A stretch of DNA of 39,165 nucleotides, from positions 1-39,165 of the forward strand of contig CAIUSV010000032.1 of NCBI GenBank assembly GCA_903901915.1. The letters run 5' to 3'. Below the pieces are notes generated by a model. The model saw only the letters and a program-made list of their open reading frames with translations. It searched no databases and was not told where the DNA came from. The DNA is from an uncultured Rhodospirillaceae bacterium. Lineage in GTDB: Bacteria > Pseudomonadota > Alphaproteobacteria > Rhodospirillales > Magnetospirillaceae. Each line of letters starts with the position of its first letter. Position 1 is the first letter of the stretch. Below are positions 15,661 through 36,082 of the stretch, in pieces. The translations under genes and the position numbers were made by a program.

Positions 15661-15972
15661 ATGAAATTGCGAATTGTCGCCGTCGCCATCGCGCTGCTGT
15701 TCGGTGGCCAAGCGTCCGGCACCTCATTCCGCCGCCAGGGCGCCTTGTTGCCACAAGGTCGGCAAATGGATCTGGCGGTCGTGGAGGCTGACCAGACTGC
15801 CACGATGGCCGACGCTGACCACCGAGGTTGCCGGCAAGGCGTTGCGCAGCAACTGGTAAAGGCGGGTCTCGGTGTCCTCGTCCAGAGCCGAGGTGGCTTC
15901 GTCGAGAAACACCCAATCGGGGCGGTTGAGCAGGACGCGGACGAACCCCAGGCGCTGCTGCTCGCCCGGTGA
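15661..15972 (+). pseudogene. Possible truncated start of a secreted-protein gene
   Basis: Only the first 21 codons lie outside the convergent ABC gene, but they look like a real gene start: GGAGGCGGGG 8-15 nt before an ATG, then a textbook signal peptide (MKLRIVAVAIALLFGGQASG). After 15724 the frame runs antisense through the 3' end of the ABC gene and has no recognisable content, stopping at 15972. This may be a gene beheaded by a rearrangement that brought in the ABC gene, or a chance frame. The hydrophobic core resembles that of the TlpA-like protein at 6255. Confidence 0.3.
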
Positions 15973-17509: not shown

Positions 17510-17525
17510 TGTGAACCGTTTCACC
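17510..17525. promoter_or_regulatory. CRP-like palindrome, site 1
   Basis: TGTGAACCGTTTCACC fits the CRP form GTGA-N6-TCAC. It is one of four related sites in the locus (see 19475, 23484 and 29007), whose shared core is GTGAANCGNTTCAC. It is centred about 100 nt upstream of the cyclase gene and 72 nt upstream of the divergent ABC gene. A second, unrelated small dyad (GTATC/GATAC, 17533-17547) follows it. The protein that binds it is not proven; the CRP-like protein at 29041 is the obvious candidate. Confidence 0.6.
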
Positions 17526-17616: not shown

Positions 17617-19371
17617 ATGTCCAAGGATGCCGAAGCGGCCTTGAAGCGGGGCGACTATTTTCACGCCTACGACCTGGCTTCCTCCGAGTTGAAGTCCCAT
17701 CCGGATGATCTGCGCCTCAATCATCTGGCGTTGTTGGCCTTGGCGCGCAGTTGCGCCAACCGCCAGGCCCGCGCCTGCCTGGAGGACCTCAAGGCTCGCG
17801 GTCTGCTCGACCAGCCGATGGAACCCAGGCTGGCGGCCGATCTCGCCGCGATCGACGCCAAGTTGATCAAGAATGTCGCGTTGGAGGCCGAAGGGGAGGA
17901 GCGTCGCGCTCTGGCCACCCGTTCGGCCGAGGGCTACGAGGCGGCGCTGGCGGGGGCGGACGACTATTATCCGGCCATCAACGCCGCCACCATGTGGCTG
18001 GTGGCGGGAAATCTCTCCCGCTCGGCGGTCATGGCGCGCCGGGCGCTGGTGGTGCTCGATGCCCTCGGTGGCGAGGATGCCGCCGATTATTGGGCCTTGG
18101 CCACCCGGGCCGAAGCGCTGTTGCTGCTTGGTCAGGGCGAGGCGGCGGCGGCGGCGCTGGCTACCGCCATGGAAGCCGCGGCGACCGATCCGGCGGCGGC
18201 GGCGGCGACCCGGCGGCAGTTGCGCTTGATCTGCGACATCTCGGGCATGCCGTGGTCGGAGCTTGACCGGGGCGGCGCACCGATCGTGCTGCATTATCGC
18301 GGCCACGGCATCGGCGGCGCGGCGACGGCGCCCGATCCGTCATGCGAGGCCGATGTGGCCACGGCGATCGGCCGCTTTCTCGATAGCCGTCATGTCGCCG
18401 CCGGCTTCGGCTCGCTGGCCGACGACGCTGAAATCCTGGTTGCCGAGGCGTTGTTGGCCCGCGACATCGACCTGCACCTGATCTTCCCCTGTGATGTCGC
18501 GAGCTTCAGGCAAGCTTTCGTGGCCGAGCGCTGGTGGCCGCGGTTCGACGCCTGCGCCGCGGCGGCGCGTCAGACCGTGGTCAGCCGGGGGGCCGATCTG
18601 GACGATCCGCTGTTCCGGCACGCCGCCATGGTGGGGATGGGGATGGCCTTGATGCGTGCCGATTTTCTGGCCACCACCGCCGAGCATCTGGCGGTATGGG
18701 ATCGGTCGCCGGAGGAGGACGCCGCCGCCACCGTTCGCGATGTGGACGAATGGAGCCGCACCGGCAATCCGGTGACGATAATTCCCAGTGGTCGCGGGCG
18801 TGCGGGCGTCGCGGCCAAAGCCGGGGCTATCGCCCCGCGACGCGAGCTGAAGGCCCTGTTGTTCTGCGACATCAAGGGCTTTTCGACCGTGGCCGAGCCG
18901 CAGATGCCCGCCTTCATCGAACACGTTCTGGGCGGTCTGGCCAAGGAGATTGCCGTTTTCGATCATGCTATCGCCTACCGCGAGACCGCCGGCGACGGCA
19001 TCTATGTGGTTTTCGACGACGTGGTGGCGGCGGCGGATTGCGGCGTGGCGCTGACCCGGCGCATGGAGCGTCTTGGCTCGGTTCCGGGGCTGCCGCCTTT
19101 GGCATTGCGGGTTTCCGCCCATGTCGGGGTGGTTCTGCCGGCGATCGATCCGGTCACCGGCTTTCGCAAATTCTTCGGTACCGAAGTGATCCGCGCCGCC
19201 CGTATCGAACCGATCACGCCACCCGGGGAATGCTACGTCACCGAGGAACTGGCCAGTCATCTGCAACTGGCGGCGCCCGACCGCTTTAATTGCGACTATG
19301 TGGGCGTACTCGACAGTGCCAAGGGATTCGGCGCCTTCCGTATGTATTCGTTACGCCGACGAATGATCTAA
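17617..19371 (+). CDS. TPR/TRAFs-binding-like, SLOG-like and class III cyclase protein
   Basis: A 584-aa soluble three-part protein. Residues 1-215 are helical repeats resembling the TRAFs-binding/TPR region of bacterial signalling proteins (YYPAINAATMWLVAGN, TRAEALLLLG). Residues 220-390 resemble a SLOG nucleotide-binding Rossmann domain (RGHG, GSLADDAEILVAEALL, AVWDRSP). Residues 408-584 form a class III nucleotide cyclase: metal Asp418 (LFCDIKGFS), Asp460 (ETAGDGIYVVF) and Arg529 (AAR). Substrate residues are unusual: Glu456 where adenylate cyclases have Lys, Lys518 where Asp or Cys is usual, Ile525 where Asn is usual. The base it cyclises is therefore uncertain. Residues 110-203 match its paralogue at 29041, which bears a cyclic-nucleotide-binding domain. 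The start ATG 17617 lies behind a weak GGTGG. Confidence 0.82.
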   Translation: MSKDAEAALKRGDYFHAYDLASSELKSHPDDLRLNHLALLALARSCANRQARACLEDLKARGLLDQPMEPRLAADLAAIDAKLIKNVALEAEGEERRALATRSAEGYEAALAGADDYYPAINAATMWLVAGNLSRSAVMARRALVVLDALGGEDAADYWALATRAEALLLLGQGEAAAAALATAMEAAATDPAAAAATRRQLRLICDISGMPWSELDRGGAPIVLHYRGHGIGGAATAPDPSCEADVATAIGRFLDSRHVAAGFGSLADDAEILVAEALLARDIDLHLIFPCDVASFRQAFVAERWWPRFDACAAAARQTVVSRGADLDDPLFRHAAMVGMGMALMRADFLATTAEHLAVWDRSPEEDAAATVRDVDEWSRTGNPVTIIPSGRGRAGVAAKAGAIAPRRELKALLFCDIKGFSTVAEPQMPAFIEHVLGGLAKEIAVFDHAIAYRETAGDGIYVVFDDVVAAADCGVALTRRMERLGSVPGLPPLALRVSAHVGVVLPAIDPVTGFRKFFGTEVIRAARIEPITPPGECYVTEELASHLQLAAPDRFNCDYVGVLDSAKGFGAFRMYSLRRRMI

Positions 19372-19474
19372 CCGCCGCCCGGAAATGGCCTGTTTTTGTA
19401 AACGGCCTGCCGGATGTGCGCGTCCAGGTTTCGGAATCACGTTTCCCATCCGAACGGGATGAGTTACGGTTTGC

Positions 19475-19490
19475 GGTGAAACGGTTCACA
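19475..19490. promoter_or_regulatory. CRP-like palindrome, site 2
   Basis: GGTGAAACGGTTCACA is nearly the reverse complement of site 1: an 18-bp stretch covering it is identical to 17511-17528 in inverted orientation. It is centred about 120 nt upstream of the GAF gene at 19603, within a 231-nt gap that otherwise shows only a small CAGGC/GCCTG hairpin and the GGAGG ribosome site. Confidence 0.65.
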
Positions 19491-19602
19491 CGGCCAGGGG
19501 GGGCTTTCCGGCATTGTTGGATTTGCGCGACGGCCATCGGTTTTGGTCCGCGCCGGTCAGGCTGATGCCTGGGATCCGTCTCGGTGACTTGGAGGCAGGG
19601 GC

Positions 19603-20247
19603 ATGTCACACGTCTTATCCACCTATCTCGGCATTCTGCCCAACACCACGGAGGCAGGGGTGTTGCGCCTGCTGGTTCAGACCGGGGTGACTGCGGTCGG
19701 AGCCGGGGAAGGCTCGCTCCTGGTTCTTGACGAGGCCAGCGGGGTGTTGCGCTTCGCCATGACCATCGGGTCCAGCGAACAGACCCTGTTGGGACAGACC
19801 GTGCCGCTGGGCGAGGGGATTACCGGCTTGGCCGCCGCCACCCATCAGGTGCAGATCGGCGCGCCGACCTTCGGCGGCGTCCGTCAGGATGATGCCAAGC
19901 GCGCCGGGCCGGAAGCGGTGATCGCCGCGCCGATGCTGGTGGGCGAAACCCTGGTCGGGGTGATGACCGCGGTCAGCTTCAAGGAGGGCAAGCGCTTTAC
20001 CAGCGCCGACGGCAGTCTTTACGGCGGGTTGGCGACCATCGCCGGCGTCGTCGTCGATCAGCGCCGTCGTCTGGCCGCCTATGAAGGCGAACACTCGGAT
20101 GTTCCCGCGGCACTCTCGACGCTGGCCGGGCCGGAACGTCAGGTCCTGGAGTCGCTGCGGCGGGTCAGTGCCCAGCGACCGGCGGCGATCCGCCAGCTTG
20201 CCGCGATCTTGGCGGCAGTCGAAACGCTGGCTCTCGGCGAAGGCTGA
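19603..20247 (+). CDS. GAF-domain sensor protein
   Basis: A 214-aa cytosolic protein. Most of it (about 10-155) is a GAF domain, recognisable by GAGEGSLLVLDEASGVLRF, the GEGITGLAAATH helix-turn and a C-terminal EAVIAAPMLVGETLVGVMTA strand pair. GAF domains bind small ligands, often cyclic nucleotides, haem or 2-oxoglutarate; no specific NKFDE-type cNMP signature is evident here. The remaining 60 residues are helical and may mediate dimerisation. It starts at ATG 19603 behind GGAGG, is preceded by palindrome site 2, and is followed after 4 nt by the subtilisin gene, so it probably senses a signal for that operon. Confidence 0.85.
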   Translation: MSHVLSTYLGILPNTTEAGVLRLLVQTGVTAVGAGEGSLLVLDEASGVLRFAMTIGSSEQTLLGQTVPLGEGITGLAAATHQVQIGAPTFGGVRQDDAKRAGPEAVIAAPMLVGETLVGVMTAVSFKEGKRFTSADGSLYGGLATIAGVVVDQRRRLAAYEGEHSDVPAALSTLAGPERQVLESLRRVSAQRPAAIRQLAAILAAVETLALGEG

Positions 20248-20251
20248 AATC

Positions 20252-21016
20252 ATGTCCGCAGGCTCGCTCAAAGCCGCCCTGGATGAAGGGTTCGAGGTAC
20301 TGTCCCGGCGGACGTTGGCCCCGATCGAGGTGGCGGTGCTCGACAGTGGTATCGATGCCAGTCATCCGGATCTCGTTGGCCGCATTGCCCGCGCCTTCGC
20401 GGTCGAGGTGGTGGACGGCAAGGCCGAGGTCAAGGAGGTCGAAGTCGGCATCAATAACGATGCCTACGGCCATGGCACCGGCGTCGCCAGCATCATCGCC
20501 CGCATCGCGCCGAACGCCCGCATCATCGACGTTCGGGTCTTGGGGGCGGCCAATTCCGGTGCCGCCGCGGCGACGTTGGCCGGGTTGCGGCTGGCGCTAA
20601 CCCACCGCTGGAAGGTGGTCAATCTCAGTCTGGCGCTGGCCGGCAGTTCAATCACCGAACTACAGGCCTTGTGCGAACGGGCCTATTACCAGGATCAGAT
20701 CCTGGTCGCCGCCCGGCGTAACATGCCGATTTCCGATGACGGCTTTCCCGCCGAATTGTCCAGTTGCATCGGCGTGGACAACGAAGAATTCGAGGACCCG
20801 CTGCGCTTTCGCTATCAGTCCAGCGATAAGATAGAATTCATCGCCCACGGCGAAGAAGTAACAGTAGCCGCGCCGGGTGGTGGGTACACGACAGTGGTTG
20901 GTACGAGCTTTGCGACGCCAGCGATATCCGGCATCTGTGCCGTAATTGTCGGAGCATTTAACGATCTTTCTCCTTTTGAGGTAAAGTCTTTTCTAAAGAC
21001 CATTTCAGACGCATGA
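20252..21016 (+). CDS. Compact cytosolic subtilisin-family (S8) serine protease
   Basis: A 254-aa subtilase reduced to its catalytic core. The triad is complete: Asp31 (VLDSGID), His74 (GHGTGVAS) and Ser219 (GTSFATP), with the oxyanion Asn157 (VAARRN). There is no signal peptide and no propeptide, so it probably acts in the cytosol and needs another form of restraint. It lies 4 nt after the GAF gene, and the ribosome site is weak, suggesting coupling. The likely substrate is a neighbour, for example the four-cysteine protein at 21067 or a locus effector (inference). The last 150 nt or so are clearly more AT-rich than the rest of the gene. Confidence 0.92.
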   Translation: MSAGSLKAALDEGFEVLSRRTLAPIEVAVLDSGIDASHPDLVGRIARAFAVEVVDGKAEVKEVEVGINNDAYGHGTGVASIIARIAPNARIIDVRVLGAANSGAAAATLAGLRLALTHRWKVVNLSLALAGSSITELQALCERAYYQDQILVAARRNMPISDDGFPAELSSCIGVDNEEFEDPLRFRYQSSDKIEFIAHGEEVTVAAPGGGYTTVVGTSFATPAISGICAVIVGAFNDLSPFEVKSFLKTISDA

Positions 21017-21024
21017 ATTAGTTT

Positions 21025-21046
21025 GCGTATTCTTAGATACGCTTTT
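21025..21046 (+). terminator. Short hairpin with T-run, possible attenuator
   Basis: GCGTAT (21025-21030) pairs with ATACGC (21037-21042) around a 6-nt loop, followed by TTTT. It lies between the protease stop and the four-cysteine gene, 20 nt before that ATG. The short AT-containing stem suggests partial termination, adjusting the ratio of the two products, or a processing site. Confidence 0.5.
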
Positions 21047-21066
21047 CGACAACAGGAGTAGAAAAG

Positions 21067-21306
21067 ATGAGCAAGGAGCTTACGGTCAAGCAGGGCAAGA
21101 AGATCACCCCCGAGCAGGCCAAGGAAGTCAACAAGAACGAGGTCGCCCTGCTGGTGGCCCGTCCGGCCCAGGAAGAAGTCGAAGGCCAGAGCCATGCCGA
21201 ATGGGTGCGTTGCCCCTATTGCGGCGCGGTCGGTGTGGCCAGCGTGTCCAACCGCCACTGGCACAATGTGTGGTGCGGGTCCTGCGGCCAGATGTTCGCT
21301 GTCTGA
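21067..21306 (+). CDS. Small four-cysteine zinc-ribbon-like protein
   Basis: A 79-aa protein with a charged, Lys/Glu-rich N-terminal half and a C-terminal half containing two CxxCG knuckles (Cys49/Cys52 and Cys70/Cys73, 17 residues apart), with His64 and His66 between them. That spacing is what one expects of a zinc ribbon. An alternative is a leader-plus-core peptide precursor, since a protease lies upstream and an ABC exporter downstream; the highly polar N-terminus would be the leader. I cannot choose between these from sequence. It has an AGGAG ribosome site and ATG at 21067. I do not recognise the family. Confidence 0.75.
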   Translation: MSKELTVKQGKKITPEQAKEVNKNEVALLVARPAQEEVEGQSHAEWVRCPYCGAVGVASVSNRHWHNVWCGSCGQMFAV

Positions 21307-21376
21307 TGTCGCTTGGGGGGGCGGCGGCGCCGTCCCCTCCCTTGACGCGGTGTTTTTGACGATCGAGTGTTTCGTG

Positions 21377-21404
21377 CGGGAGAGCGGCGTTTGCCGTTCT
21401 CCCG
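21377..21404 (+). other. Intercistronic hairpin
   Basis: Arms 21377-21388 and 21393-21404 form a 12-bp stem with one G-U pair and a GTTT loop. No T-tract follows, so it is more likely a stability or processing element between the four-cysteine gene and the ABC exporter gene than a terminator. Confidence 0.5.
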
Positions 21405-21475
21405 TCGCCGCCCCAGCCCCCCGAGGCGGATGGCGTCCGAATTGATCACATTGGGGGGATCGGTGGAGGGGGCAG

Positions 21476-23461
21476 ATGGGGGAAGTCGGCAGCAAGGTCG
21501 CGGCGCCCGGTGATGGTCCGGGGGCTCCCAAGATGGGCCGGCCGGTTCCGATGCAGGGGCGGCCGGTACAGGGTCAGCCGCCGTCGGATGGCGTTCCCTA
21601 CATGAAATTGATGCGCTGGGGCTGGGTGGTGGTGTCGCCCGCCTTTGCCGCCTTTGCCATCAACATTGGCCTTTCGCTGGCCGACCGCCTGCTGGCCCAG
21701 TACAACGCCGTCGTACTCGGCGCCTTGCTGCCGGCCCTGGGGCAGGGCGGTGGCGGCGAGCCCGCCCGGGGTTTTCTCGGTCATCTGCTGCCGTCGGGTT
21801 TGCCTGCCATTGCCGTCACCTTCGCCGTGGTCGGCATTCTGGTCATCATCGCCAGCATCGCCAACCGGATGGTCCAGGCGTGGTCCAACAATGTGATGCT
21901 GGGACGGCTGCAATGCCGGCTGCATGACCGTCTGCTGCGGCTCGGTCCAGTCTATCATACCGGCCACGACGTTTCGCGCACGTCGCTGGTGGTCTTGCAA
22001 TACGCTACCGGCGCGCAACAGTTTCTGCGCGAGATGGTGGCGTTTCCGCTGACCCGGGGAATCAGCCTGGTCACCGCCATCGCCCTGATGGTCGATAGCC
22101 TGATGGCCATGCCGACCATGCCGGTGGGTATGGCGCTGTCGCTGGGCGCGGTGCTGGTCCTGATGCCGTTGGCGGGATGGTTGACCGGCGGTTCGGTGCG
22201 CAAGGCGTTCGAGCGGGTCAACATGAACCGGGCGCGCCTGTCCAACGAGTTTCTCAATTCCGCCGGCCAGCCGTTGGAAGTGCAGTTGATGGGCGCGCGC
22301 GAGCAACGCTCGCGCTCGTTCGCCGCCGTGGTGGGCGACGTGGTCCGCGCCGCCACCACCGCCAATCTGCGCATGGAGTTGAGCAGCCAGATCCAGAGCC
22401 AGCTGCCGACCATCCTCCAGACCGCCATTCTGATCTTCGGCGCCTTCCTGGTGGTGCAGTCGGGTGATCCGGGCGTTGCCGCGCCCATGTTGGCGATCTA
22501 TTTCCTGGTTCCCCAGGTGGTGACGCCGGTGCAGGAGATTGTTTCCTTTGCCCAGGCCATCAACCAGAACTGGCCGGTGGTTCAGGAAGTGGTGGAAATC
22601 CTTGACCAGCCCGAACCGATGGTCGTCGGCGGAGACCTCGCCTTGACCCCGTCCGACCGGGCCATCGCCTTCAAGGACGTGGTTTTCGGTTATACCCCCG
22701 AGGTTCCGCCCATCCTGACCGGGCTGTCCCATACCTTCCGCCCGGGTACCGTCAGCGCCATCGTCGCCCGCTCGGGCGCCGGCAAGTCGTCGCTGCTCAA
22801 TTTGGTGGCACGGCTACAGCGACCACAGGGCGGCCTGATTTCCATTGGCGACAAGCCGCTGGGGCGGATCGAGGAGACCAGCCTGCACCGCTCCATCGTC
22901 AAGATCTCCCAGTTCCCGTTGTTCATCAACGATACGGTGCGGGCCAATTTCCGCTTGGCCAAGGGCGATGCCAGCGACGGCGAGATCGAGGCGGTATGCC
23001 GCCGTACCGGGTTGTGGGACATCCTGGTGCGCAACGCTCCTCCCGGGGCCGGGGCGCTGGATCTTGTGCTGCCGCGCGAGACCAGCCAGGGGCTGTCGGG
23101 CGGTCAGAGACGGCTGTTGGCCATTACCCGTGCCCTGCTGCTGGAGCCCGGCGTGTTGCTGCTCGATGAACTGACCACCGGCATCGACGCCATCGGGCGC
23201 CAGATGCTGGCCACCATTCTGAGGCCCTGCTGCACCGGCCTGACGGTGCTGATGGTCGATCACGACATGGAATTCGTGCGAGCCATGGCCGATGAGGTGT
23301 GCTGCCTTGAGGACGGGCGGTTCAGCGACGTCGGTACCCCGGCCGAGTTGCTGGAACGGCCGAACCTGTTCCGCCAACTGTGCGATACGCAGAAATCCCT
23401 GCTGGCGGCTCCCGCTCAGATGGATGTGGTGTCGGTGCCGTTGCCGCGCCTGATCGGGTAG
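21476..23461 (+). CDS. ABC exporter, fused membrane and ATPase domains
   Basis: A 661-aa half-transporter. A Gly/Pro-rich, probably disordered cytosolic tail (about 1-42) precedes five or six membrane helices (about 50-330) and a C-terminal ATPase. Walker A reads ARSGAGKSS (Lys437) with Ala in place of the usual first Gly; the Q-loop (KISQFPLFINDTV), signature LSGGQRR, Walker B LLLDELTTGID and H-loop VDHD are present. It resembles lipid/peptide exporters more than nutrient importers. GGAGGGGG precedes ATG 21476. Position after the protease and small peptide genes suggests it may export a processed product, which is inference. No peptidase C39 domain is fused to it. Confidence 0.9.
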   Translation: MGEVGSKVAAPGDGPGAPKMGRPVPMQGRPVQGQPPSDGVPYMKLMRWGWVVVSPAFAAFAINIGLSLADRLLAQYNAVVLGALLPALGQGGGGEPARGFLGHLLPSGLPAIAVTFAVVGILVIIASIANRMVQAWSNNVMLGRLQCRLHDRLLRLGPVYHTGHDVSRTSLVVLQYATGAQQFLREMVAFPLTRGISLVTAIALMVDSLMAMPTMPVGMALSLGAVLVLMPLAGWLTGGSVRKAFERVNMNRARLSNEFLNSAGQPLEVQLMGAREQRSRSFAAVVGDVVRAATTANLRMELSSQIQSQLPTILQTAILIFGAFLVVQSGDPGVAAPMLAIYFLVPQVVTPVQEIVSFAQAINQNWPVVQEVVEILDQPEPMVVGGDLALTPSDRAIAFKDVVFGYTPEVPPILTGLSHTFRPGTVSAIVARSGAGKSSLLNLVARLQRPQGGLISIGDKPLGRIEETSLHRSIVKISQFPLFINDTVRANFRLAKGDASDGEIEAVCRRTGLWDILVRNAPPGAGALDLVLPRETSQGLSGGQRRLLAITRALLLEPGVLLLDELTTGIDAIGRQMLATILRPCCTGLTVLMVDHDMEFVRAMADEVCCLEDGRFSDVGTPAELLERPNLFRQLCDTQKSLLAAPAQMDVVSVPLPRLIG

Positions 23462-23483
23462 GCGCCGGCGGTCCCTCTTCACC

Positions 23484-23499
23484 GGTGAATCGGCTCACA
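23484..23499. promoter_or_regulatory. CRP-like palindrome, site 3
   Basis: GGTGAATCGGCTCACA, again GTGA-N6-TCAC with the central CG. It lies 22 nt after the ABC exporter stop and about 115 nt before the His/Gly-rich gene, just upstream of that gene's structured leader. Its placement means that gene probably has its own promoter, separate from the exporter operon. Confidence 0.6.
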
Positions 23500-23544
23500 G
23501 CGCACGGGCTTGGCCGGCTGGGCGCCGGTCCGCCGGTGTGGGAG

Positions 23545-23604
23545 GATCCCTGCATGGGTCGAACGGACCCGTGGGACCGGCAAAGGTCCCGATGCAGGAG
23601 GATC
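23545..23604 (+). ncRNA. Structured 5' leader with buried ribosome site
   Basis: The sequence can fold into a three-way junction. The outer helix pairs 23545-23555 with 23592-23604 (11 bp with a GA bulge at 23598-23599). Hairpin A is 23556-23560 with 23566-23570 (loop GAACG). Hairpin B is 23573-23578 with 23585-23590 (loop GGCAAA). Single-stranded joints are only GT and G. The Shine-Dalgarno AGGAGG (23596-23601) lies wholly in the outer helix, so translation of the gene at 23607 should depend on opening it. I do not recognise a named riboswitch class; a thermosensor or protein-binding leader is equally possible. Confidence 0.55.
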
Positions 23605-23606
23605 AA

Positions 23607-23978
23607 ATGTACGCCTACACCATGCTTCGTCGCGCCGTGCTTCGCACCGGTTTCGCCCTGGCCCTCGTCGCCCTTACCGGCGGTTCCGCCCTGGCCGGCG
23701 GTTACGGCCACCAAGGCGGCGGATCGTCCCACGGCGGTTACGGCCACCAAGGCGGCGGATCGTCCCACGGCGGTTGGGGCGGGCAGCAGCAGACGTCGCA
23801 GTACCGGTCGTCGTCCATGGGCGGGCACCAGCAACGCTCGGCTTCGTCGTGGGGCGGGGGGCAGCATCGGCAGGCAGCTTCGTCGTGGGGCGGCCATGGG
23901 CGCCACAACGTCTCCTGGGACCGGCACGACCACCGGGGTTGGGGCGAACACCACTGGCGTGATCGCGGCCGCTGGTAG
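23607..23978 (+). CDS. Secreted His/Gly/Ser-rich small protein
   Basis: A 123-aa protein with a clear signal peptide (about 1-31: hydrophobic core FALALVALTGG, cleavage near SALAGG). The mature part is low-complexity: repeats of GGYGHQGGGSSH, then Ser/Gln and finally many His and Trp (HDHRGWGEHHWRD). It would be disordered and could bind metal ions such as nickel, copper or zinc through its histidines. It has AGGAGG 5 nt upstream of ATG 23607 inside the leader structure, and CRP-like site 3 further upstream. I do not recognise a family. The 57-aa lipoprotein at 28750 has a similar Gly/His/Trp tail. Confidence 0.75.
   Translation: MYAYTMLRRAVLRTGFALALVALTGGSALAGGYGHQGGGSSHGGYGHQGGGSSHGGWGGQQQTSQYRSSSMGGHQQRSASSWGGGQHRQAASSWGGHGRHNVSWDRHDHRGWGEHHWRDRGRW
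23697..23768 (+). repeat. 36-bp perfect tandem duplication
   Basis: Two identical 36-bp copies (23697-23732 and 23733-23768) encode the repeated 12-residue unit GGYGHQGGGSSH. The absence of any synonymous difference points to a recent, in-frame slippage or recombination event, so copy number may vary between strains. Confidence 0.9.
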
Positions 23979-23998
23979 ACCGTGATCGCCGTGACCAT

Positions 23999-24038
23999 CA
24001 TCCCCCCTGCTCCTCCACCAGGAGAGACAGGGGGGATG
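23999..24038. terminator. Bidirectional terminator hairpin
   Basis: CATCCCCCCTG (23999-24009) pairs exactly with CAGGGGGGATG (24028-24038), with a nested CTCCT/AGGAG stem in the loop. It lies between the convergent His/Gly-rich and nSTAND genes. There is no strong T-tract on either side, but the position and stability suit a shared terminator. Confidence 0.65.
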
Positions 24039-24049
24039 GGATTCAGGGC

Positions 24050-26611
24050 CTACTTCTTGGCCTGCGCCTTGGCCAGTTTTTCCTCGACGTCGGCAATGCC
24101 TCGCTTGGCGTTGCCGATGGTGGAGTCGCGGCCGGCGAGATCCTGGAACGTCGCCTTTGCCGCCAGATAGCGTTCGATGGCTTCGGCATTCCGCCCCTCG
24201 GCCGCCGCGACATCGCCGCGGGTCATCAGAATCTGGGCGCGCATGTTGGCCCAGTTGACCACTTGGCCATCCAGGTCGGCAAGGGTATCGATGATGCCGC
24301 CGGAACGATCGAGCAGTTGCTGGGCCTCGTCCGGACGTTTCCGCTTCAGCAGAAGCGACGCCAACTGATACTGCGAGAAGGCGTGGCTGATGCGGGAATT
24401 GAAGGGGTCGTCCGGCACCAGATCGGCGGTCATCTTCATCCGTATGCGCAGTTCCGCCTCGGCCTCGTCCAGCTGATTGCTCTCGCGATACAGACTTGCC
24501 CGTCGAGAGTGAACGACCGACATCTCGCGGGACCACAGCACCCAAGCCCGCTTGAAGGCCACGCCATCATGTCCGTCGGCCAGGGATTTCCGCAGCATGG
24601 AAGCTGCGATCGCCTGCTGCTCTTCGGCCAGAATCATGCTCCGGTCGATCAGGGCGGCGGCGGTGGCGATCCGGCTTTGCTTCTGGGCCTCGTCCTCGTC
24701 CTTCGGCTTGTCCTGGAGGGTGGCGTTGGCCAAGCCGCCCAGCGCCCGTGACAGGCGATGTTTCAGGCGGAAGATATCGGGATAGGTTCTGACCAGCCCA
24801 TCGGCAAGGTTGACCGCCTCCTGATAGTCCCGATGGGACTCGGCGTAATTGCTCTGCTGGCTGTAGATCGCGCCCCGTTGAAGCAACAGGTCCAGCCTTA
24901 CCCGCTCGATCCAGTTCCGGGCGTTGGTGGAGGAATCCGCCACATGGTCGAGCATGGCCGAGGCTTCGGCAAGGTGGGTCAGGCCATGGCTGGGGTGGCC
25001 GTGGACGGCGGCGGCGCCGGCCCGCAGGACCAGGTCGTTGGCCTTCAGGCGATCCACCGCCTCCTCGTGCCGGCCGGTCTCTTCCTGCCAGCGGTCGGCG
25101 AACCCTTCGACGTCGGCGATCACGAATTGAATCAGGTCGCCCGCCCCAGGGTAAAGTCGGACCTGATCGGCGACCTCGGTGGTCATCGCCGTCAGATAGC
25201 TCAACAGCTTTTCGCGGTCCCGCTTGGCGGCTTCCGCCTGCTCGTGGAAACGGAACGCGGCCACCGACAAGGCGATGGCCACCGCCGCGAGTCCACCGCC
25301 CAGCGCCGTCATCCGACGTACCCGCTGCTTCTGGCGGCGCTGGACCTCGGCCTGCCTCGCCCGCTCGATGCGGCGGTCGCGGCTTTCCTTGATGACCTTG
25401 GTGAGCAGATCGTGGGTCAGTTCGACCCGCAGCACCCCGAAGCGTTCCTCAAGACGCAGTAGGCGCCGGGCGATCAGGCTGTCGATCGCCTCGCGGCTGA
25501 CGCCTTCCATGGCGAGGACGTCTTCGAGCGCGCGGGAATCCCGGTGGCCGGAATCGGTCAGAAGGTGGTCCTCGATGAAATCGCGGCATTCCGTCGACAC
25601 GTCGGCGGTGCTTTTGGAATAGAAGTCGGTGATGATGGCGCTATGGTGACCGGCCAGCAGATCAGCCGATATCTGCGGTCGATCGGTGGCGATCCGGCGG
25701 TTGTTGAGTTCCTGGCAGACTACGCTCAGCAGCGACGGTTCCACCTCCAGCGAGTCGAGGTCGACGGCTTCGCCATTGTCGTGAGTCTCGCGGCCACGGG
25801 CGACGAAATAGATGATGCGGTCGGCCACCCCTTCCTCGATAAGGTGGCCGCCGCTTTTTTCGATCGCCTGCAACGCCTGAAAGCCGGTCATGCGGGTCAG
25901 CCGCATGCGGTTGGTCATGATCGAGGGAATGATCCGCCGCAGTTCCTCGAAATGGGCAAGGAAATCCTCGCGGAAGCCAAGGATGATGTTGCAGTTCTTC
26001 TTGGAGAAGTCGAATTCGGCGGTACTGTCCGGATCGCGTTCCAGCCGCTCGGTGACGGAAGGCGGCGTGCGGTTCTCGATCAGTTCGGCCAGCGCGGTGA
26101 TAAGCTGGTGGCGGCGGTCACTGCCGGCGTTGTCGCGATCACGCGGCAACAGGGTGAAAATCTCCTCGAACTGGTCGAGCGCCAGCACCGGGACCACCAG
26201 CCGATTTTTCTCCGTCCAGAAATCCACATCCTCGCGGTGGAAGTATTCCCACAGGGTTTCGTCCGGCAGAGGCGGGCGCGCCTCGATGCGGTTTTCCGCC
26301 AGGGCCTCGGCCAGTGCGTTCTTGACCTGATCGATCAAGGACATCTGCTGATTGGCGATGTCGAGGCGGATATAGATCGGTAAAAATTCCTGTTGTCGCA
26401 GTTTGGGGAACAGGCCCGCCTTCAGCAGCGAGGATTTGCCCAAACCCGATTGCCCGAACAGTACGGTCAACACATTGCGCTTGATCAGGCGCATCAGTTC
26501 CTGAGTCTCGGTATCGCGCCCATGGAAGAAGTCCTGGGCCTGCTCGTCGAAGGACATCAGGCCGGGCCAAGGATGTTCTCGGTCCAAAAGCCGATCAGCC
26601 ATCTCGTCCAT
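24050..26611 (-). CDS. nSTAND-type NTPase with membrane helix and helical repeats
   Basis: An 853-aa STAND NTPase of the nSTAND1 kind. The P-loop domain has Walker A GQSGLGKSS (Lys59) and Walker B VLALDQFEEIF (Asp146). The winged-helix end carries VELTHDLLTKVI. A charged linker and one membrane helix follow (about 434-453), then 400 residues of alpha-helical TPR-like repeats. STAND proteins are switch-like receptors that oligomerise on ligand recognition, here presumably through the repeats. The start at 26611 lies 2 nt after the SIR2-TIR stop (TGAGGATG), so the two are translationally coupled. The frame extends further upstream, but only through the SIR2-TIR coding region. Confidence 0.85.
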   Translation of the reverse strand: MDEMADRLLDREHPWPGLMSFDEQAQDFFHGRDTETQELMRLIKRNVLTVLFGQSGLGKSSLLKAGLFPKLRQQEFLPIYIRLDIANQQMSLIDQVKNALAEALAENRIEARPPLPDETLWEYFHREDVDFWTEKNRLVVPVLALDQFEEIFTLLPRDRDNAGSDRRHQLITALAELIENRTPPSVTERLERDPDSTAEFDFSKKNCNIILGFREDFLAHFEELRRIIPSIMTNRMRLTRMTGFQALQAIEKSGGHLIEEGVADRIIYFVARGRETHDNGEAVDLDSLEVEPSLLSVVCQELNNRRIATDRPQISADLLAGHHSAIITDFYSKSTADVSTECRDFIEDHLLTDSGHRDSRALEDVLAMEGVSREAIDSLIARRLLRLEERFGVLRVELTHDLLTKVIKESRDRRIERARQAEVQRRQKQRVRRMTALGGGLAAVAIALSVAAFRFHEQAEAAKRDREKLLSYLTAMTTEVADQVRLYPGAGDLIQFVIADVEGFADRWQEETGRHEEAVDRLKANDLVLRAGAAAVHGHPSHGLTHLAEASAMLDHVADSSTNARNWIERVRLDLLLQRGAIYSQQSNYAESHRDYQEAVNLADGLVRTYPDIFRLKHRLSRALGGLANATLQDKPKDEDEAQKQSRIATAAALIDRSMILAEEQQAIAASMLRKSLADGHDGVAFKRAWVLWSREMSVVHSRRASLYRESNQLDEAEAELRIRMKMTADLVPDDPFNSRISHAFSQYQLASLLLKRKRPDEAQQLLDRSGGIIDTLADLDGQVVNWANMRAQILMTRGDVAAAEGRNAEAIERYLAAKATFQDLAGRDSTIGNAKRGIADVEEKLAKAQAKK

Positions 26612-26613
26612 CC

Positions 26614-28017
26614 TCAGGCCCTCATTCGCTTGCGATAGTCGCGGACCAGCCGGACCAGCTTCATCTGAAATTCCGCCGTGCTCTGGCCGCCTGGCAATCG
26701 GGTCCATTGCACCCGCTGAAAGCCTTCGGGAACGGCATCGTTGTAGGCGCCGGTATCGTCGACCACCACCGGCAGGATGAATGGAACGCTGTCGGCGATG
26801 CTGGACGCCCGTTCCAGCGCCCACTTCCACTCGCGGATGAAAAAGCCCTCCAGGCGGGTCGTCGATGCCTGCGAGATCAGGGGAAGGAAGTATGAGCAGC
26901 TGCGGATGTTGCGGCGGATCTTGTCGGAATACTCGTCGCCGGCTTCCAGTTCCTGCTTGTCGAGCCAGACGTCGAGCCCGGCCTCGTCCAGTCCGGCCAT
27001 GAGGGCTTGGGCCTTCTCCACGTCCTCGCTGGCGTAGCTGATGAAGACGGCACCGGGCACCATTCCCCCCGGCCGCTCGTCGTCATCGTCATCGAACCGC
27101 GACGACCGCTGGGACGAGGGGGCCGCCGGTGCCTGGACGGCAACGGTGGGGGTGTGGCGTTTCGACAGCCGGTCGGACAATTCGTCGACGAATTCGATCG
27201 GCGAATATTCGACGACCTTGGTGTTGTAGCTGAAGTGCTGGAGGAACAACACAAGGTTGTTGTCGGATCGTAGGCGGCTATCGACGAACACCTCCATTTC
27301 GCCACGCTGCAAAGACAATTGCCGGCTTTTGGCGATGCGGATGAAAAAGCGCGCCAGCCAGTCCGAGAAATTGCAGCCGATAATCAGCAGGTGGTTGCTT
27401 TTCAACTCGTCGAACAGCAACTGAGCCCGCCGCGAATCCGACTGCATGGAATGGAGAAATTCCAGCGTGTCTTCCTCGGTGATCACATAATCGGGCGACG
27501 CCGACAGCTTGCCCAGCAGATGGAATACCGTCGGCTTTTTAAGGTCGGCCTTTTCGCAGGGCAGGTCCTGCACGTTGTTGGGCGCGTAGCTGAGAACCTC
27601 GGTCCGTGATTCCCCGTGGAAGCGGACGGCGTCGATGGCCTGCTTGAGCAGGGAGTCGAAGGTGACGCTGATGAACAGATTGAAATGCTCGATGGCCGCC
27701 AGCTTGCGCAGCGGTTCGGGAATTTCAAAGGTCTCTTCCTTCATGATGGCGCGGATCTTGGGATAGATCTCTTCCCGCCGACCCCGGTTTTCCAGATATT
27801 TACAGACCACGTCGTTCAGCATGGGCGGTGCGGCGAAGTCCGCCAGCGGCAGCTTCAGCCGCTCGGCCAGCCGTTCGGCGATCCGGCTGTAGAGGGGAAC
27901 GGTTTGGCCGGGTGGCCCGACCTCCAGTAATTCCTGACCGATGATCGGAATGACGCGGCGATCCTCGATGTGCTCCAGGAGATCGTCCCACAGCAAATCC
28001 GGCGAATTGTCCAGCAT
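26614..28017 (-). CDS. SIR2-like and TIR fusion protein
   Basis: A 467-aa protein with two NAD-linked domains. Residues 15-280 form a SIR2-like Rossmann domain (VIPIIGQELL, SVTFDSLLKQA, VFHLLGK with His166, HLLIIGCNFSDW). The usual TTNYD-type Asn appears replaced by Thr119, so NADase activity here is doubtful. An acidic linker (DDDDDE) leads to a TIR domain (about 321-460: GAVFISYASEDVEKA) with the catalytic Glu396 in FFIREWKWAL intact. TIR domains in bacterial immunity cleave NAD or make cyclic ADP-ribose signals. GGAGGGG precedes ATG 28017. It forms a two-gene operon with the nSTAND NTPase and is divergent from a SLOG gene. Candidate defence module, not proven. Confidence 0.85.
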   Translation of the reverse strand: MLDNSPDLLWDDLLEHIEDRRVIPIIGQELLEVGPPGQTVPLYSRIAERLAERLKLPLADFAAPPMLNDVVCKYLENRGRREEIYPKIRAIMKEETFEIPEPLRKLAAIEHFNLFISVTFDSLLKQAIDAVRFHGESRTEVLSYAPNNVQDLPCEKADLKKPTVFHLLGKLSASPDYVITEEDTLEFLHSMQSDSRRAQLLFDELKSNHLLIIGCNFSDWLARFFIRIAKSRQLSLQRGEMEVFVDSRLRSDNNLVLFLQHFSYNTKVVEYSPIEFVDELSDRLSKRHTPTVAVQAPAAPSSQRSSRFDDDDDERPGGMVPGAVFISYASEDVEKAQALMAGLDEAGLDVWLDKQELEAGDEYSDKIRRNIRSCSYFLPLISQASTTRLEGFFIREWKWALERASSIADSVPFILPVVVDDTGAYNDAVPEGFQRVQWTRLPGGQSTAEFQMKLVRLVRDYRKRMRA

Positions 28018-28207
28018 TCGTCCCCTCCACTGATATCGCCTGATCGGATGGCCGTGGTATTATGAACAAAAGTTTAATTAAGGTCCACAAGCTCCGCTGG
28101 GTCGGGACGATTTCAACAAGAAAGCCGGGTGATCGGACCGACACCCCTTGCACGGTGCCGTTGACGCCGCGACAATAGCCGTTGACCGAGGCTTCGAGGT
28201 CCGCCGC

Positions 28208-28753
28208 ATGGATCACACCGTTCCCGCCGTCGTCGGTGTTACCGGCCACCGCGATCTCCTGCCCGACGACGTGCCCCGCCTGGAAGAGGTGGTGGCCGGC
28301 CTGCTGGCGGAATTGTCCCCGCCGCCGATGGTGCTTTCCGCCCTGGCCGAGGGTGCCGACCGTCTGGTCGCCCGTGTCGCGCTCCGGTGCGGTGCGGCGT
28401 TGGTGGTGCCGTTGCCGTTCCCGCCTGACGATTACGAGGCGGATTTTGCCGACCAGGCCAGTAAACGCGAATTTCGCGAATTGCTGGCCGCCGCCGCGGA
28501 ATCCTTCGTGGTTCCCGGTGCCTGCGCCGGCGAGCGGCGCGAGGCCGGTTATCTGCGGGTGGGCCGGGAACTGGTGGCGCGCTCCCGGCTTCTCCTGGCG
28601 TTGTGGGATGGCGAGCATCTCGCCGCCGCCGGCGGCACCTCGGATGTGGTGCGCATGTGTCGGGGGCGTACGCCTGTTCTTCATCTCGCCACCCGTCACC
28701 TGCGCAAGCCCCAGATTCCCGGTGCCTTCACCGTCAACCGGCTGGAGCCTTAG
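28208..28753 (+). CDS. Stand-alone SLOG-like nucleotide-binding protein
   Basis: A 181-aa Rossmann-like protein. The motifs VVGVTGHRDL, SALAEGADRLVARVAL and LLALWDGEHLAAAGGTSDVV are those of the SLOG superfamily, whose members bind nucleotides or nucleotide-derived signals; the SLOG domain of Thoeris ThsA binds cyclic ADP-ribose made by a TIR enzyme (family knowledge). This one has no attached effector. The ATG at 28208 is used; a frame extension to TTG 28148 lacks domain content. It is divergent from the SIR2-TIR gene across a 190-nt gap that includes an AT-rich patch near 28060-28080. Its 3' end overlaps the lipoprotein stop by 4 nt. Confidence 0.75.
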   Translation: MDHTVPAVVGVTGHRDLLPDDVPRLEEVVAGLLAELSPPPMVLSALAEGADRLVARVALRCGAALVVPLPFPPDDYEADFADQASKREFRELLAAAAESFVVPGACAGERREAGYLRVGRELVARSRLLLALWDGEHLAAAGGTSDVVRMCRGRTPVLHLATRHLRKPQIPGAFTVNRLEP

Positions 28754-28923
28754 TGCCAGCCGCGGCTGGCGCCGGAGTTCCAGTGGTTGTACGAGGGGGA
28801 ATGATGGCCGTAGCCCGACGAATGCCAGCCGGGTTCGGCGTCGTAATAGGTCGGCGCCACGACGCAGCCCGACAGGGCGAACAGCGACAGCATGGCGACG
28901 GTAAGAAGAGTAAATCTGGACAT
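28750..28923 (-). CDS. Small lipoprotein (57 aa)
   Basis: A short gene with ATG 28923 behind GGAGG at 8 nt. The first 20 residues are a lipoprotein signal (MSRFTLLTVAMLSLFALSGC) with Cys20 as the lipid-attachment site. The mature part has 37 residues, rich in Gly, Ser, His, Tyr and Trp (YGHHSPSYNHWNSGASRGWH), similar in flavour to the secreted His/Gly-rich protein at 23607. CRP-like site 4 lies about 92 nt upstream. Function unknown; it would sit at a membrane surface facing the periplasm. The stop overlaps the convergent SLOG gene stop. Confidence 0.8.
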   Translation of the reverse strand: MSRFTLLTVAMLSLFALSGCVVAPTYYDAEPGWHSSGYGHHSPSYNHWNSGASRGWH

Positions 28924-29006
28924 CGTTTCCTCCAGAATGCGGCGGGATCAATCGGGCTCCGCCGGTAAGCTCTGGACATACGATGACTCACCTCGACCGG
29001 GGGCGG

Positions 29007-29022
29007 AGGGAAACGATTCACC
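29007..29022. promoter_or_regulatory. CRP-like palindrome, site 4 (weaker)
   Basis: On the minus strand GGTGAATCGTTTCCCT matches the shared pattern GTGAANCGNTTCAC at all but one defined position. It is centred about 92 nt upstream of the lipoprotein start and just after the 3' end of the CRP-like gene. It is the least symmetrical of the four sites. Confidence 0.45.
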
Positions 29023-29040
29023 TTAAGAACGGGATGCTGA

Positions 29041-31503
29041 CTATGGCCTCAGGGTATAGATCGGCAACGGGCCGCTATCGTCCTGGGTCTGGACGCGGCC
29101 GGCGTATTCGCCGGCAAGCGGAATGTCGCGCAACGCCGCCTCGGCCATGAACATTTCGGTGGCGAACGGCACATTGGCCGGGCAGATCGGTCGGGCGATG
29201 GCGGCAGCCGAGCGCCATGCCGCCGTTTCGGCGCAGTCGCCACGAGGGCCGACGTCGCAGATGGCGCGCAGTTCAAATCCGCTGCGCCGGCCCTCTTCGG
29301 TCAGCAGGCCGGCGGCGGTGGCGGCCGAGGCAAGATCTTGGAAGATCCAGGTGGTCTGGCCGTCGCCCAGGCTCGACTCCGCCACCAGGGCATCGGTCCT
29401 TGCCGCCGCCGGCAGAACCGGCGCCGACTGTCCCGCCGCAGCTTGGCAAAACAGCATCGGAACGAAGCCGAACGTCTCGCCATCACCGCCGGTGTCTTGC
29501 TCCGTCGCCGCCGGGCGCGGCCAGGGGCAGGGAATGTGGATAAGCTGCCGGCCGGTAGCCGACCACTCCCCGACCGCCCGGGCGGTGCCGGCGATTCCGG
29601 TCGGCTTCCGGCCGTCCCATACCGCCAGCAGGGCCGCCTCGGTATCGAGTTCGGCGGCGCGGCGCAGCGCCAGGCCCATGGTGAAGCGGTGGCCGAGGTA
29701 GTAGGTCTGGTCGTCGATACCGAACCGGGCGCGTCCAAGTTCAATCACCCGGTGGGCCTGTTCCAGACAGCGGTTGTAGCGCGCCACCCAGGATTTGCCC
29801 CCCGATGCCACCGAACCGGCGATGAAATCGCCACTCCTTACCGGTAGGACGATGTTGAGCTCGTGACCGGCTTCAAGAATGGCCTCGGCGATGATGATGT
29901 CGCTGCCGCAGGCCAGCGAGCCATAGGCCCACCCCGCTTCGGCCGAGGCCAACGCCTCGCCGACCGCGTCGGCCAACCGTCCGGCGAACCGCCCTTGCGC
30001 CGATTCCTCGACAGTGCGCGCTGGCATCATGTGTCCGGTGAAAAAGATCACCCGGCGTTGACGGGCCTGTTCCAGCAGGCGATCCACCTCGGCGATGCCC
30101 AATTGCCCGCCCAGCATCCGCAACTGCCGGCGGGTAGCGGCGATGGCGCCGGGATTGGCATCCTCGGCGGCGAGGGCGCGGCCGAGATGGCGCTCGGCCC
30201 GAGTGAACTCGCCCAGAATCAATGCCGCCTCGGCCCGAGTGGCATGGGCATAATACGCCGGGTCGTCGGCCTCGACCGCGTTAAGCACGCGGGCGGCCAC
30301 CTTTGCCGCCTTCTGCGACTCGCCGGCGACCACGAACATGGCGGCGGCGTTGATGCCGGGATAGTAGTTCCGCGACCGCGAGAAGATCGCGAGATAGAGT
30401 TCCGCCGACCGGCGGGCGTAGTCGCGCCGGGCTTCCTCGTCGATGACCGACCGGCTGAGATCCTTGAGCAGGCGCGGTTCCAGCGCGGCGATATCGTCGT
30501 CGTCCGAGGTGTGGTCGAAGCCGAACGACGACAGCATGGCCAGTGCCTGCGAGGTGGCGAAGGATCGCGCCGCCGCCAGAACGGCGCGGTGGCGCAGTTG
30601 CGGATGGCGCGCCAGCGACGGCCGCCGCAGCGCGTCGCAGGCCTCGTCGAAGGCGCGGGCATTGTAGCCGCGCGCCAGATCGGCATCGATCAGCGCCAGC
30701 CAGGACTCCGCCTCCCAGGTCTTCCGCTGGCCCGACCGCATCCGGCTGATGGCTTCGAGGCCGCGAAGGTCCAAGATGGTGATGACGCCCTGATGGTCCA
30801 CATGGACGAGGCCGGCATCTTCCCACAGCCGCATGGTTTCCAGCACGCTGCGCCGGTCGGCGGTGAGCAGGTCGCCCAATTGCTGGTGGGTGACCTTGGT
30901 CGGCATGCGGATCGCGGCTCCTTCGCGCACGCCGAGAACCCTGGCCCGTTCCAGCAGGATCTGGCCGAGGCGGATTTCGACCAGCCCAATGAAGGATTGG
31001 CGTTCCAGCACCTCGACCAGACGGCGGTGCCGGGTCGCCGCCGACCGGGCGATCTTCAGGGTGATCCTGGGAAAGGTGTCGAACATGCGGCGCACCGAAC
31101 GGCCGTCGAGGACGACGATGACGCTGTCGGCGGCGGCGAAGGCCCGCATCTGGCGCGGTGGCGGCGGGGTACCGTCGGCGGCTTCGACGAATTCCATTTC
31201 GCCGAACATCTCTCCGCGCCCGATCCAGTGGGCCGCCACCTTCTTGCCTTCGGGGTCGTCGGCGGCACAGCCGAGGATCACCGCGCCGTTCTCGACGATA
31301 TAAAGTGCGTCGGAGGGATCGCTGGCCTCGTAGATGGTCCCCTGGTTGGCCACCGTGCGCAACTGGGCGCCGAAGGCCAGATCGTCAAGGGCCTCGGGGG
31401 CGAGTTCGGAGAAAGGCGCGATGCTGCCGATCACCTCGCGACAGCGTTCGCTGGCGAACCGGCGCTTGCGCTCCGCACCTTTTTCGACATCCGCAGCAGA
31501 CAA
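29041..31503 (-). CDS. CRP-type cNMP-binding/HTH, TPR, SLOG and pseudocyclase protein
   Basis: An 820-aa protein with four or five modules. Residues 25-150 are a cyclic-nucleotide-binding domain with Glu102 (MFGEM) and Arg117 in a Pro-rich loop (PPPPRQMRA). Residues 165-250 are a CRP-like winged helix (THQQLGDLLTADRRSVLETM). Residues 265-470 are TPR/TRAFs-binding-like (YYPGINAAAMFVVAGE). Residues 483-660 are SLOG-like (FFTGH, GSLACGSDIIIAEAIL, AVWDGRK). Residues 678-820 resemble a cyclase that lost its first metal Asp: FCQAAAG replaces FCDIKGF, while GDG (Asp714) remains. The TPR, SLOG and cyclase parts parallel the protein at 17617, so it could sense that enzyme's product. The start is TTG 31503 behind GGGGGG; no ATG fits. 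RecQ lies 59 nt upstream. Confidence 0.8.
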   Translation of the reverse strand: MSAADVEKGAERKRRFASERCREVIGSIAPFSELAPEALDDLAFGAQLRTVANQGTIYEASDPSDALYIVENGAVILGCAADDPEGKKVAAHWIGRGEMFGEMEFVEAADGTPPPPRQMRAFAAADSVIVVLDGRSVRRMFDTFPRITLKIARSAATRHRRLVEVLERQSFIGLVEIRLGQILLERARVLGVREGAAIRMPTKVTHQQLGDLLTADRRSVLETMRLWEDAGLVHVDHQGVITILDLRGLEAISRMRSGQRKTWEAESWLALIDADLARGYNARAFDEACDALRRPSLARHPQLRHRAVLAAARSFATSQALAMLSSFGFDHTSDDDDIAALEPRLLKDLSRSVIDEEARRDYARRSAELYLAIFSRSRNYYPGINAAAMFVVAGESQKAAKVAARVLNAVEADDPAYYAHATRAEAALILGEFTRAERHLGRALAAEDANPGAIAATRRQLRMLGGQLGIAEVDRLLEQARQRRVIFFTGHMMPARTVEESAQGRFAGRLADAVGEALASAEAGWAYGSLACGSDIIIAEAILEAGHELNIVLPVRSGDFIAGSVASGGKSWVARYNRCLEQAHRVIELGRARFGIDDQTYYLGHRFTMGLALRRAAELDTEAALLAVWDGRKPTGIAGTARAVGEWSATGRQLIHIPCPWPRPAATEQDTGGDGETFGFVPMLFCQAAAGQSAPVLPAAARTDALVAESSLGDGQTTWIFQDLASAATAAGLLTEEGRRSGFELRAICDVGPRGDCAETAAWRSAAAIARPICPANVPFATEMFMAEAALRDIPLAGEYAGRVQTQDDSGPLPIYTLRP

Positions 31504-34558: not shown

Positions 34559-34562
34559 CGGA

Positions 34563-35255: not shown

Positions 35256-35267
35256 CGGTGGATCGCT

Positions 35268-36035: not shown

Positions 36036-36058
36036 GGCGACGCTCCCGTTTCATTTCG

Positions 36059-36082
36059 GCGTATAGTCGTGGTATATAACGC
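36059..36082. promoter_or_regulatory. Putative ModE operator
   Basis: GCGTATA and TATATAACGC, separated by 7 nt, form an imperfect dyad resembling the ModE box of E. coli (CGnTATA ... TATAACG style). It lies between modA (start 36035) and the divergent modE (start 36117). Molybdate-bound ModE would repress modABC here and possibly itself. Confidence 0.65.

Follow-up and report, generated by a model that had tools for sequence, protein, structure and literature searches.

The window, by which we mean the whole stretch of 39,165 nucleotides, codes for two related proteins, P0001 and P0002, each of which joins a TPR-S domain and a SLOG-like region to a cyclase-type end. The reading we prefer, tentatively and with a little less than even confidence, is that they belong to two neighbouring modules, one around P0001 (module A) and one around P0002 (module B), and not to one dedicated pair. 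In module A, the TPR-S part of P0001 would sense a stimulus, upon which a cyclic nucleotide would be made or bound; a CRP-type regulator would read this signal and act at GTGAA-N4-TTCAC operators, the targets being P0001 itself, a group of GAF, S8 peptidase, Zn-ribbon and ABC genes, and the gene of a small secreted protein. A protease-exporter pair would be switched on in this way, probably processing and exporting a small protein. In module B, the TPR-S/SLOG/pseudocyclase part of P0002 would now be the sensor of a CRP-type DNA-binding protein, which would govern a SIR2-TIR and nSTAND1 gene pair of the conflict-system type, predicted to target NAD.

Common build of P0001 and P0002

P0001 (17617..19371, plus strand) consists of TPR-S, a SLOG-like region with degenerate motifs and a class III cyclase domain, while P0002 (29041..31503, minus strand) carries a CRP-type cNMP-binding domain and an HTH ahead of TPR-S, a SLOG-like region and a degenerate cyclase end. 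Both open reading frames were found where the preliminary description had placed them; it had omitted that P0002 (820 aa) is read from the minus strand, the plus-strand translation being interrupted by a stop. The proteins align at 33% identity over 503 aa (E 6e-45), which bears out the common order of three modules proposed in that description, and the motif pairs it cited are present in both. TPR-S (PF20308) matched P0001 with 30.4 bits and P0002 with 36.4 bits, both above the Pfam gathering score of 27.6. The CRP-type domain and the HTH are restricted to P0002, as had been claimed (Pfam cNMP_binding, E 3e-10, 40.3 bits for a cut-off of 27.5; HTH_Crp_2, E 8e-9, 35.8 bits for a cut-off of 27).

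The SLOG-like middle is conserved across the TPR-S/SLOG/cyclase family, and no Pfam model matched it in P0001 or P0002. Modelled alone, the region reached a pLDDT of 57.6 and gave weak Foldseek matches, none with E<=0.001, among which LOG, YvdD, the Moco carrier and DprA appeared along with many unrelated structures. Besides these matches, the region is taken to be SLOG-like from its motifs, which are worn in P0001 (WDRSPEEDAAAT for WDG..GT), intact in P0002 (WDGRKPTGIAGT) and lost in the P0002 orthologue. By its motif, P0005 (28148..28753, plus strand) is presumably a stand-alone SLOG-like protein; it had no Pfam match up to E 1.

In P0001, the Pfam model Guanylate_cyc scored 20.8 bits, slightly below its cut-off of 21.9, and in an alignment that includes P0001 and leaves out P0002 (A2) each of the 13 members matched TPR-S as well as Guanylate_cyc at E<=0.01. 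A class III cyclase fold was recognised in P0001, the best PDB cyclase match having an E of 0.0015. With the usual motif labels on the columns of the family alignment, both metal-binding Asp residues are kept in P0001 (the FCDIKGF and AGDG columns); the first of them is kept in P0001 only, as the preliminary description had said, with Q for D in P0002. Class III cyclases have their transition-state Asn in the N-x3-R motif, and adenylate cyclases hold Lys and Asp at the base-contact positions. P0001 retains the Arg of N-x3-R and has Ile for the Asn, a position occupied by Ser or Thr in its closest relatives and by Asn in the type of a third paralogue (C73, below), and it has Glu and Lys where adenylate cyclases have Lys and Asp. 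Because of the Ile at the catalytic position and this Glu/Lys pair, the P0001 cyclase may be weak or inactive, and the idea of a plainly active enzyme was not supported; judging from its sequence, P0001 probably makes a small cyclic-nucleotide signal. The same replacements, together with the degenerate SLOG motif, favour an alternative to which we give about one chance in four, namely that P0001 is a pseudo-cyclase acting as a nucleotide-binding adaptor, while a housekeeping CRP reads the operators in answer to other cyclases, for example the C73 copy. Against this, P0001 keeps both metal Asp residues and the Arg, unlike P0002.

To examine the end of P0002 we used a profile made from the cyclase domains of 19 other members, from which the incomplete L086 and L090 were dropped and P0002, L091 and L092 were kept out by design. 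The P0002 end scored 20.1 bits, a value reached by none of 300 shuffles (238 scored, best 2.6), and the orthologue 21.1 bits (0 of 300; 237 scored, best 6.0); the L092 protein was marginal, with 5.4 bits (0 of 300, best 4.9). The best local match of P0002 spans positions 133-186 of the 202 in the profile, chiefly the last third, the front of the domain being hardly matched. At the first metal position stands Gln in P0002 and Ser in its orthologue; at the second, GDG is still there in P0002 and gone in the orthologue. AlphaFold, run on full P0002 with a three-row alignment, gave an overall pLDDT of 46, with values of 22-46 for blocks of ten along the cyclase-type end. We regard the P0002 end, on the profile match, as a pseudocyclase derived from the cyclase domain of the family, in agreement with the origin proposed for it earlier.

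In cAMP-type CRPs the ligand is held by Glu, Arg-Ser/Thr and Thr-Ser/Asn. With these roles given to the pocket residues (the phosphate Arg and its neighbours), P0002 keeps the Glu and the Arg and has Gln for Ser/Thr beside the phosphate Arg and Leu-Val for Thr-Ser/Asn; the contact set is only partly kept in P0002 and in its orthologue, and clear cAMP sensing by P0002 is not supported. The recognition helix reads R-R-x-x-x-E in P0002 as against R-E-x-x-x-K in the aligned CRPs, so P0002 may not read GTGA-type sites. By sequence, both its ligand contacts and its DNA contacts are non-canonical.

Two gene groups and their recurrence

Module A continues on the plus strand with a GAF-domain protein (P0006, 19603..20247; Pfam GAF_2, E 3e-8), a subtilisin-type (S8) peptidase whose best NCBIfam model is QhpE (P0007, 20252..21016), a small Zn-ribbon-like protein of 79 aa with two CxxC (21067..21306), an exporter-type ABC transporter with membrane and ATPase parts (P0008, 21476..23461) and a small Gly/His/Ser-rich protein with, by eye, a signal-peptide-like start (23607..23978). 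Elsewhere in the window we noticed by eye an arsenic-type cluster at 2169-6184 (ArsA, ArsD, a transporter, a phosphatase-type protein and ArsR) and a molybdate cluster at 33467-36917 (modABC and a modE-like gene). According to the consulted part of PMC7876137, QhpE cleaves a leader peptide ahead of export by the ABC protein QhpF, and the window resembles this arrangement in having an S8 peptidase near an exporter ABC and a small Cys-containing protein. The resemblance of the S8 to QhpE, next to an ABC exporter, suggests by analogy a process-and-export pair, of which the 79-aa protein is a possible substrate. Qhp biogenesis itself was rejected, as the S8 scored below the QhpE cut-off (94.3 versus 165 bits), and no radical SAM QhpD, QhpG or QhpC was recognised by eye among the window's open reading frames.

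Module A has counterparts in the family f73. In all three genomes of its alphaproteobacterial genus g122 (G191, G317 and G413), the TPR-S/SLOG/cyclase gene has a CRP gene immediately upstream, and in G191 and G413 homologues of the GAF, S8 and ABC genes (39-50%) are found less than 8 kb from both. Homologues of P0006 occur at 46% in L083 and L085, and of P0008 at 40-42% in three f73 genomes, with none in Paramagnetospirillum marisnigri (G534) at E<=1e-40. By eye, a Zn-ribbon-similar end of an open reading frame adjoins the GAF gene in L085, none being noticed in L083. Large, secreted-looking repeat proteins, also picked by eye, stand beside GAF-S8-ABC in f73 (L083 3-2021, L085 17117-19999, L112 10719-13625). 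The S8 is present in 1 of 17 genomes of the organism's own genus and in 5 of 385 of its class, and four of these five also have a strong P0001 homologue (hypergeometric 5e-6), in a test that counted only P0001 matches with E<1e-60 (14 of 385) and in which three of the four come from one genus. Two cases count against the link between P0001 and the rest of module A: in G317 the GAF, S8 and ABC homologues are on a separate contig from the cyclase, and G489, a fourth f73 genome (92% complete), has GAF-S8-ABC with no P0001 match. No CRP gene was found in G489 within the 9 kb fetched.

Module B comprises, besides P0002, an nSTAND1 NTPase with TPR (P0004, 24050..26611, minus strand, likely ATG at 26611; nSTAND1 E 1e-31) and a SIR2-like and TIR protein (P0003, 26614..28017, minus strand). 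The two genes form a pair in the same order in the window and in P. marisnigri, P0003 being 36% identical to the SIR2-TIR protein there over 469 aa and P0004 44% identical to the nSTAND1 protein over 465 aa. The P0002-type gene recurs there too, some 10 kb away from SIR2-TIR and separated from it by several other genes, and neither P0001 nor the S8 has a match in that genome. This recurrence of module B covers two genomes, a thin basis, and the distance in P. marisnigri also counts against it. SIR2-TIR occurs in 2 of the 17 genus genomes, exactly the two with the CRP-fused type (chance 1 in 136); among the matches listed, the fused type was found in at least two genomes, that of the window and G534, and a contig scan with P0002 and its orthologue gave, again among the matches listed, P. 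marisnigri as one true relative and another that was CRP-only. Active SIR2_2 domains have TTNYD and HG at the places where P0003 has VTFDSLL and FHLLG, so taken from the sequence its SIR2 part may be inactive; the orthologue has HLFG, and a REW motif is seen in both TIR parts. The island of P. marisnigri (L096, L102; NZ_LWQT01000063.1) also holds genes for a caspase protein, a caspase-FGE, a trypsin-PDZ and a RyR-domain protein, a TIR-nSTAND1 gene adjoins the P0002 orthologue, and an exact palindrome lies between the genes of two near-alike small proteins with signal-like starts.

The preliminary description expected P0001 and P0002 to occur together, but P. marisnigri, which has an orthologue of P0002, gave no match of the P0001 type. 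Of the split into a producer and a sensor-regulator that it proposed, the shared build, the lost Asp and the cyclase-derived end of P0002 stand; the co-occurrence, the clear cAMP sensing and the plain cyclase activity are not supported. An unlikely alternative to the two modules is a dedicated pair, in which a cyclic nucleotide made by P0001 would be read by P0002 as a private receptor and regulator, the two jointly controlling the genes between them. The common architecture, the distance of some 10 kb and the fusion of a CRP to one partner are in keeping with such a pair, as is the CRP gene adjoining the cyclase gene in the three g122 genomes; those CRPs, though, are unfused, carry the full cAMP-contact signature and are only 25-27% identical to the CRP of P0002. 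The retention of P0002 in P. marisnigri and its ligand and DNA contacts, unlike those of cAMP-type CRPs, also argue against the pair, and for these two reasons P0002 as reader of the P0001 product is possible but not favoured.

The wider family is sporadic in Alphaproteobacteria: at E<=1e-12, 25 of the 385 class genomes sampled had relatives of the P0001 type, the organism's own counted, 14 of them below 1e-60. A third paralogue in the same genome, missed earlier (G000:C73, 946 aa, L005 6353-9193), has TPR-S, SLOG and cyclase parts, keeps the Asn and, by eye, ends in an acidic repeat tail (SDDDIAALL-like) and adjoins a parE-like gene; matches of its type, judged by open-frame length and coverage, occur in 13 of 16 genus mates. 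In trees built without the incomplete L086 and L090, and in a second one also without the long branches L089 and L092, P0001 and P0002 fell in one clade with C73 outside, and a sister relation between them, as local duplication had implied, was neither supported nor rejected (p-AU 0.39). Partial P0001 relatives are present in four plasmid records and P0002 relatives in none at E<=1e-15; alignment A2 gave 26 pattern matches and zero relatives among viral contigs, and PHROGs gave nothing for P0001, P0002 or P0005 at E<=0.01.

We fetched the neighbourhoods of 20 relatives and, after dropping L094 and L095 (gene fragments), retained 18 loci (L076-L093). At least seven of them (L077, L079, L081, L087, L089, L091 and L092) have a TIR or STAND gene no more than about 3 kb away, a minimum count, since several contigs end early, of neighbours picked by eye in gene lists and confirmed with Pfam. 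A CRP-type gene adjoins in four (L083, L084, L085 and L092) and is fused in one (L091). Large nSTAND1-WD40 proteins are encoded next to the TPR-S/SLOG/cyclase genes at L077 2031-7352, L081 11131-15135 and L087 6658-10920. At L092 9528-11706 a TPR-S/SLOG protein with a truncated cyclase-like end is encoded next to a CRP-type gene, with a TIR-TPR gene close by, and it is possibly an unfused counterpart of P0002. The family resembles a nucleotide-signalling enzyme gated by TPR-S, repeatedly placed next to genes of the conflict type; several relatives have it adjacent to a CRP-type regulator or fused with one. Both settings are present in the window.

The window may also be a chance neighbourhood in a defence-type island, into which the two homologues would have come independently and without any connection in function, a reading we consider unlikely though a serious contender. 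In its favour are the sister relation without support, the occurrence of each module without the other and the finding that, of the window genes, recQ alone is present (E<=1e-15) in the recQ surroundings of five genus mates, compared over 20-kb stretches mostly on one side of recQ. The membership of P0001 and P0002 in one protein family and the recurrence of operator-like sites across module A speak against it. This reading, the dedicated pair and the adaptor are not mutually exclusive.

Operator-like palindromes

A palindrome, GTGAACCGTTTCAC, which we propose as a candidate CRP-like operator, is located at 17511..17524, 92 bp before the ATG of P0001; an SbmA/BacA-like ABC gene (15724-17445) is divergent from P0001 and shares this gap. 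A second exact palindrome, GTGAAACGGTTCAC, lies at 19476..19489, 113 bp before the GAF ATG, and a copy with one mismatch at 23485..23498, before the gene of the Gly/His-rich secreted protein. With the textbook CRP pattern the window gave 4 matches as against 8.1 expected, no general excess. Three of the four are these sites, each with one mismatch to that pattern, in the intergenic stretches upstream of P0001, of GAF and of the gene for the secreted protein, with GTGAA-N4-TTCAC in common. The exact form occurs four times in the 4.1-Mb genome, two of them in the window (binomial 5e-4), and not once in 317 kb of 20 comparison loci. With one mismatch allowed there are five in the window for 0.71 expected, a number reached by none of 100 shuffles, an enrichment that is partly circular, as the motif was refined on the window itself. 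The form GTGAA-N-CG-N-TTCAC with up to one mismatch is found 13 times in the genome, 4 in the window and 9 elsewhere, and its reversed control once; when the two exact sites are left out, 2 of 11 remain in the window (0.005), one of which, at 29008, was set aside as probably due to chance, being between converging gene ends and in no promoter position. The site at 30038 falls inside P0002. In two genus mates the one-mismatch operator and its reversed control were equally frequent (7 and 7, 6 and 6), that is, without excess.

Sites in f73 are independent of the refinement on the window, yet come from one genus. The exact N4 form stands before GAF in G191, as one of seven sites in that genome (chance about 5e-4); in the P. 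marisnigri island it is also one of seven (chance about 0.035). A CRP-like site precedes GAF in L083, with one mismatch to the CRP consensus, and in L085 and L112, with two. In the three g122 genomes such sites begin 93-99 bp ahead of the point where GAF is assumed to start, those of G413 and G317 having two mismatches at this same distance; in the window the figure is 128 bp. The exact operator is missing from the G413, G317 and G489 loci, and G489 has no CRP-like site with up to three mismatches in the 170 bp before GAF.

In module A as we picture it, there is about an even chance that some CRP-type protein reads the P0001 signal at GTGAA-N4-TTCAC sites, and it is doubtful, at half that confidence, that this protein is P0002. 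P0002 is the sole CRP-type gene that we noticed, by eye, among the window's open reading frames, a circumstance that, like the rarity of the exact operator in the genome, agrees with the dedicated pair; the same rarity counts against the housekeeping CRP required if P0001 were an adaptor. That alternative gains from at least one other CRP-family gene in the genome (G000:C66) and from the 9 of 13 one-mismatch sites outside the window, given a single reversed match in all; these sites elsewhere would fit a wider CRP regulon.

Known systems and meaning

The pairing of a cyclase with a CRP-type regulator is that of the adenylate cyclase-CRP circuit, to which g122, with its adjoining genes for a cyclase and a CRP-type regulator, is similar; it differs in the TPR-S and SLOG-like parts of the cyclase and, in the window, in a CRP fused to a probably inactive homologue. 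Pycsar was rejected, as P0001 had no PADLOC match up to E 0.1 and the PycC model matched only the cNMP-binding part of P0002 (E 0.0025). Kaur et al., 2020 (PMC7159879), as far as the consulted sections go, describe conflict systems with cNMP cyclase, SLOG, TIR and STAND components, which share with the window cNMP cyclase (some inactive), cNMP-binding, GAF, SLOG or SLOG-like and TIR domains within a single genomic theme. Unlike the window, those systems are tied to vWA-MoxR-VMAP and similar cores, and the same sections present no TPR-S with a cyclase and no fusion of CRP, TPR-S, SLOG and pseudocyclase. Thoeris consists of ThsA, a SIR2-SLOG protein, and ThsB, a TIR protein, in the consulted part of PMC9503650; as in the window, a single locus encodes SIR2, TIR and SLOG-like domains, but in the window SIR2 and TIR make up one protein, whose gene is followed by an nSTAND1 gene, and the SLOG-like parts are found in other proteins. 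Thoeris was also rejected, since no SIR2-SLOG protein was noticed in the window and PADLOC matched ThsB weakly, the best E being 6.5e-4. In general terms, both the parts and the way they go together with conflict systems are known, from the portions of these sources we drew on (PMC7159879; PMC9503650). The literature searched yielded no paper on TPR-S with cyclases, which other domain papers may mention, no protein with CRP, TPR-S, SLOG and pseudocyclase parts, and no experimental account of the family.

It is improbable, in our estimate, that the enzyme P0001, possibly with a non-canonical product, and the receptor P0002, on the same TPR-S/SLOG platform, couple an exporter-protease response to a NAD-targeting SIR2-TIR/nSTAND1 pair. 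On the two-module reading that we prefer, P0002 would exemplify how a dead enzyme can be turned into the sensor part of a transcription factor, and this reading raises the question of whether conflict-type cyclases act via transcription instead of a toxic effector. With their adjoining CRP and cyclase genes, an operator that is rare and a target cassette of small size, the g122 relatives make such a transcription route for a conflict cyclase directly testable.
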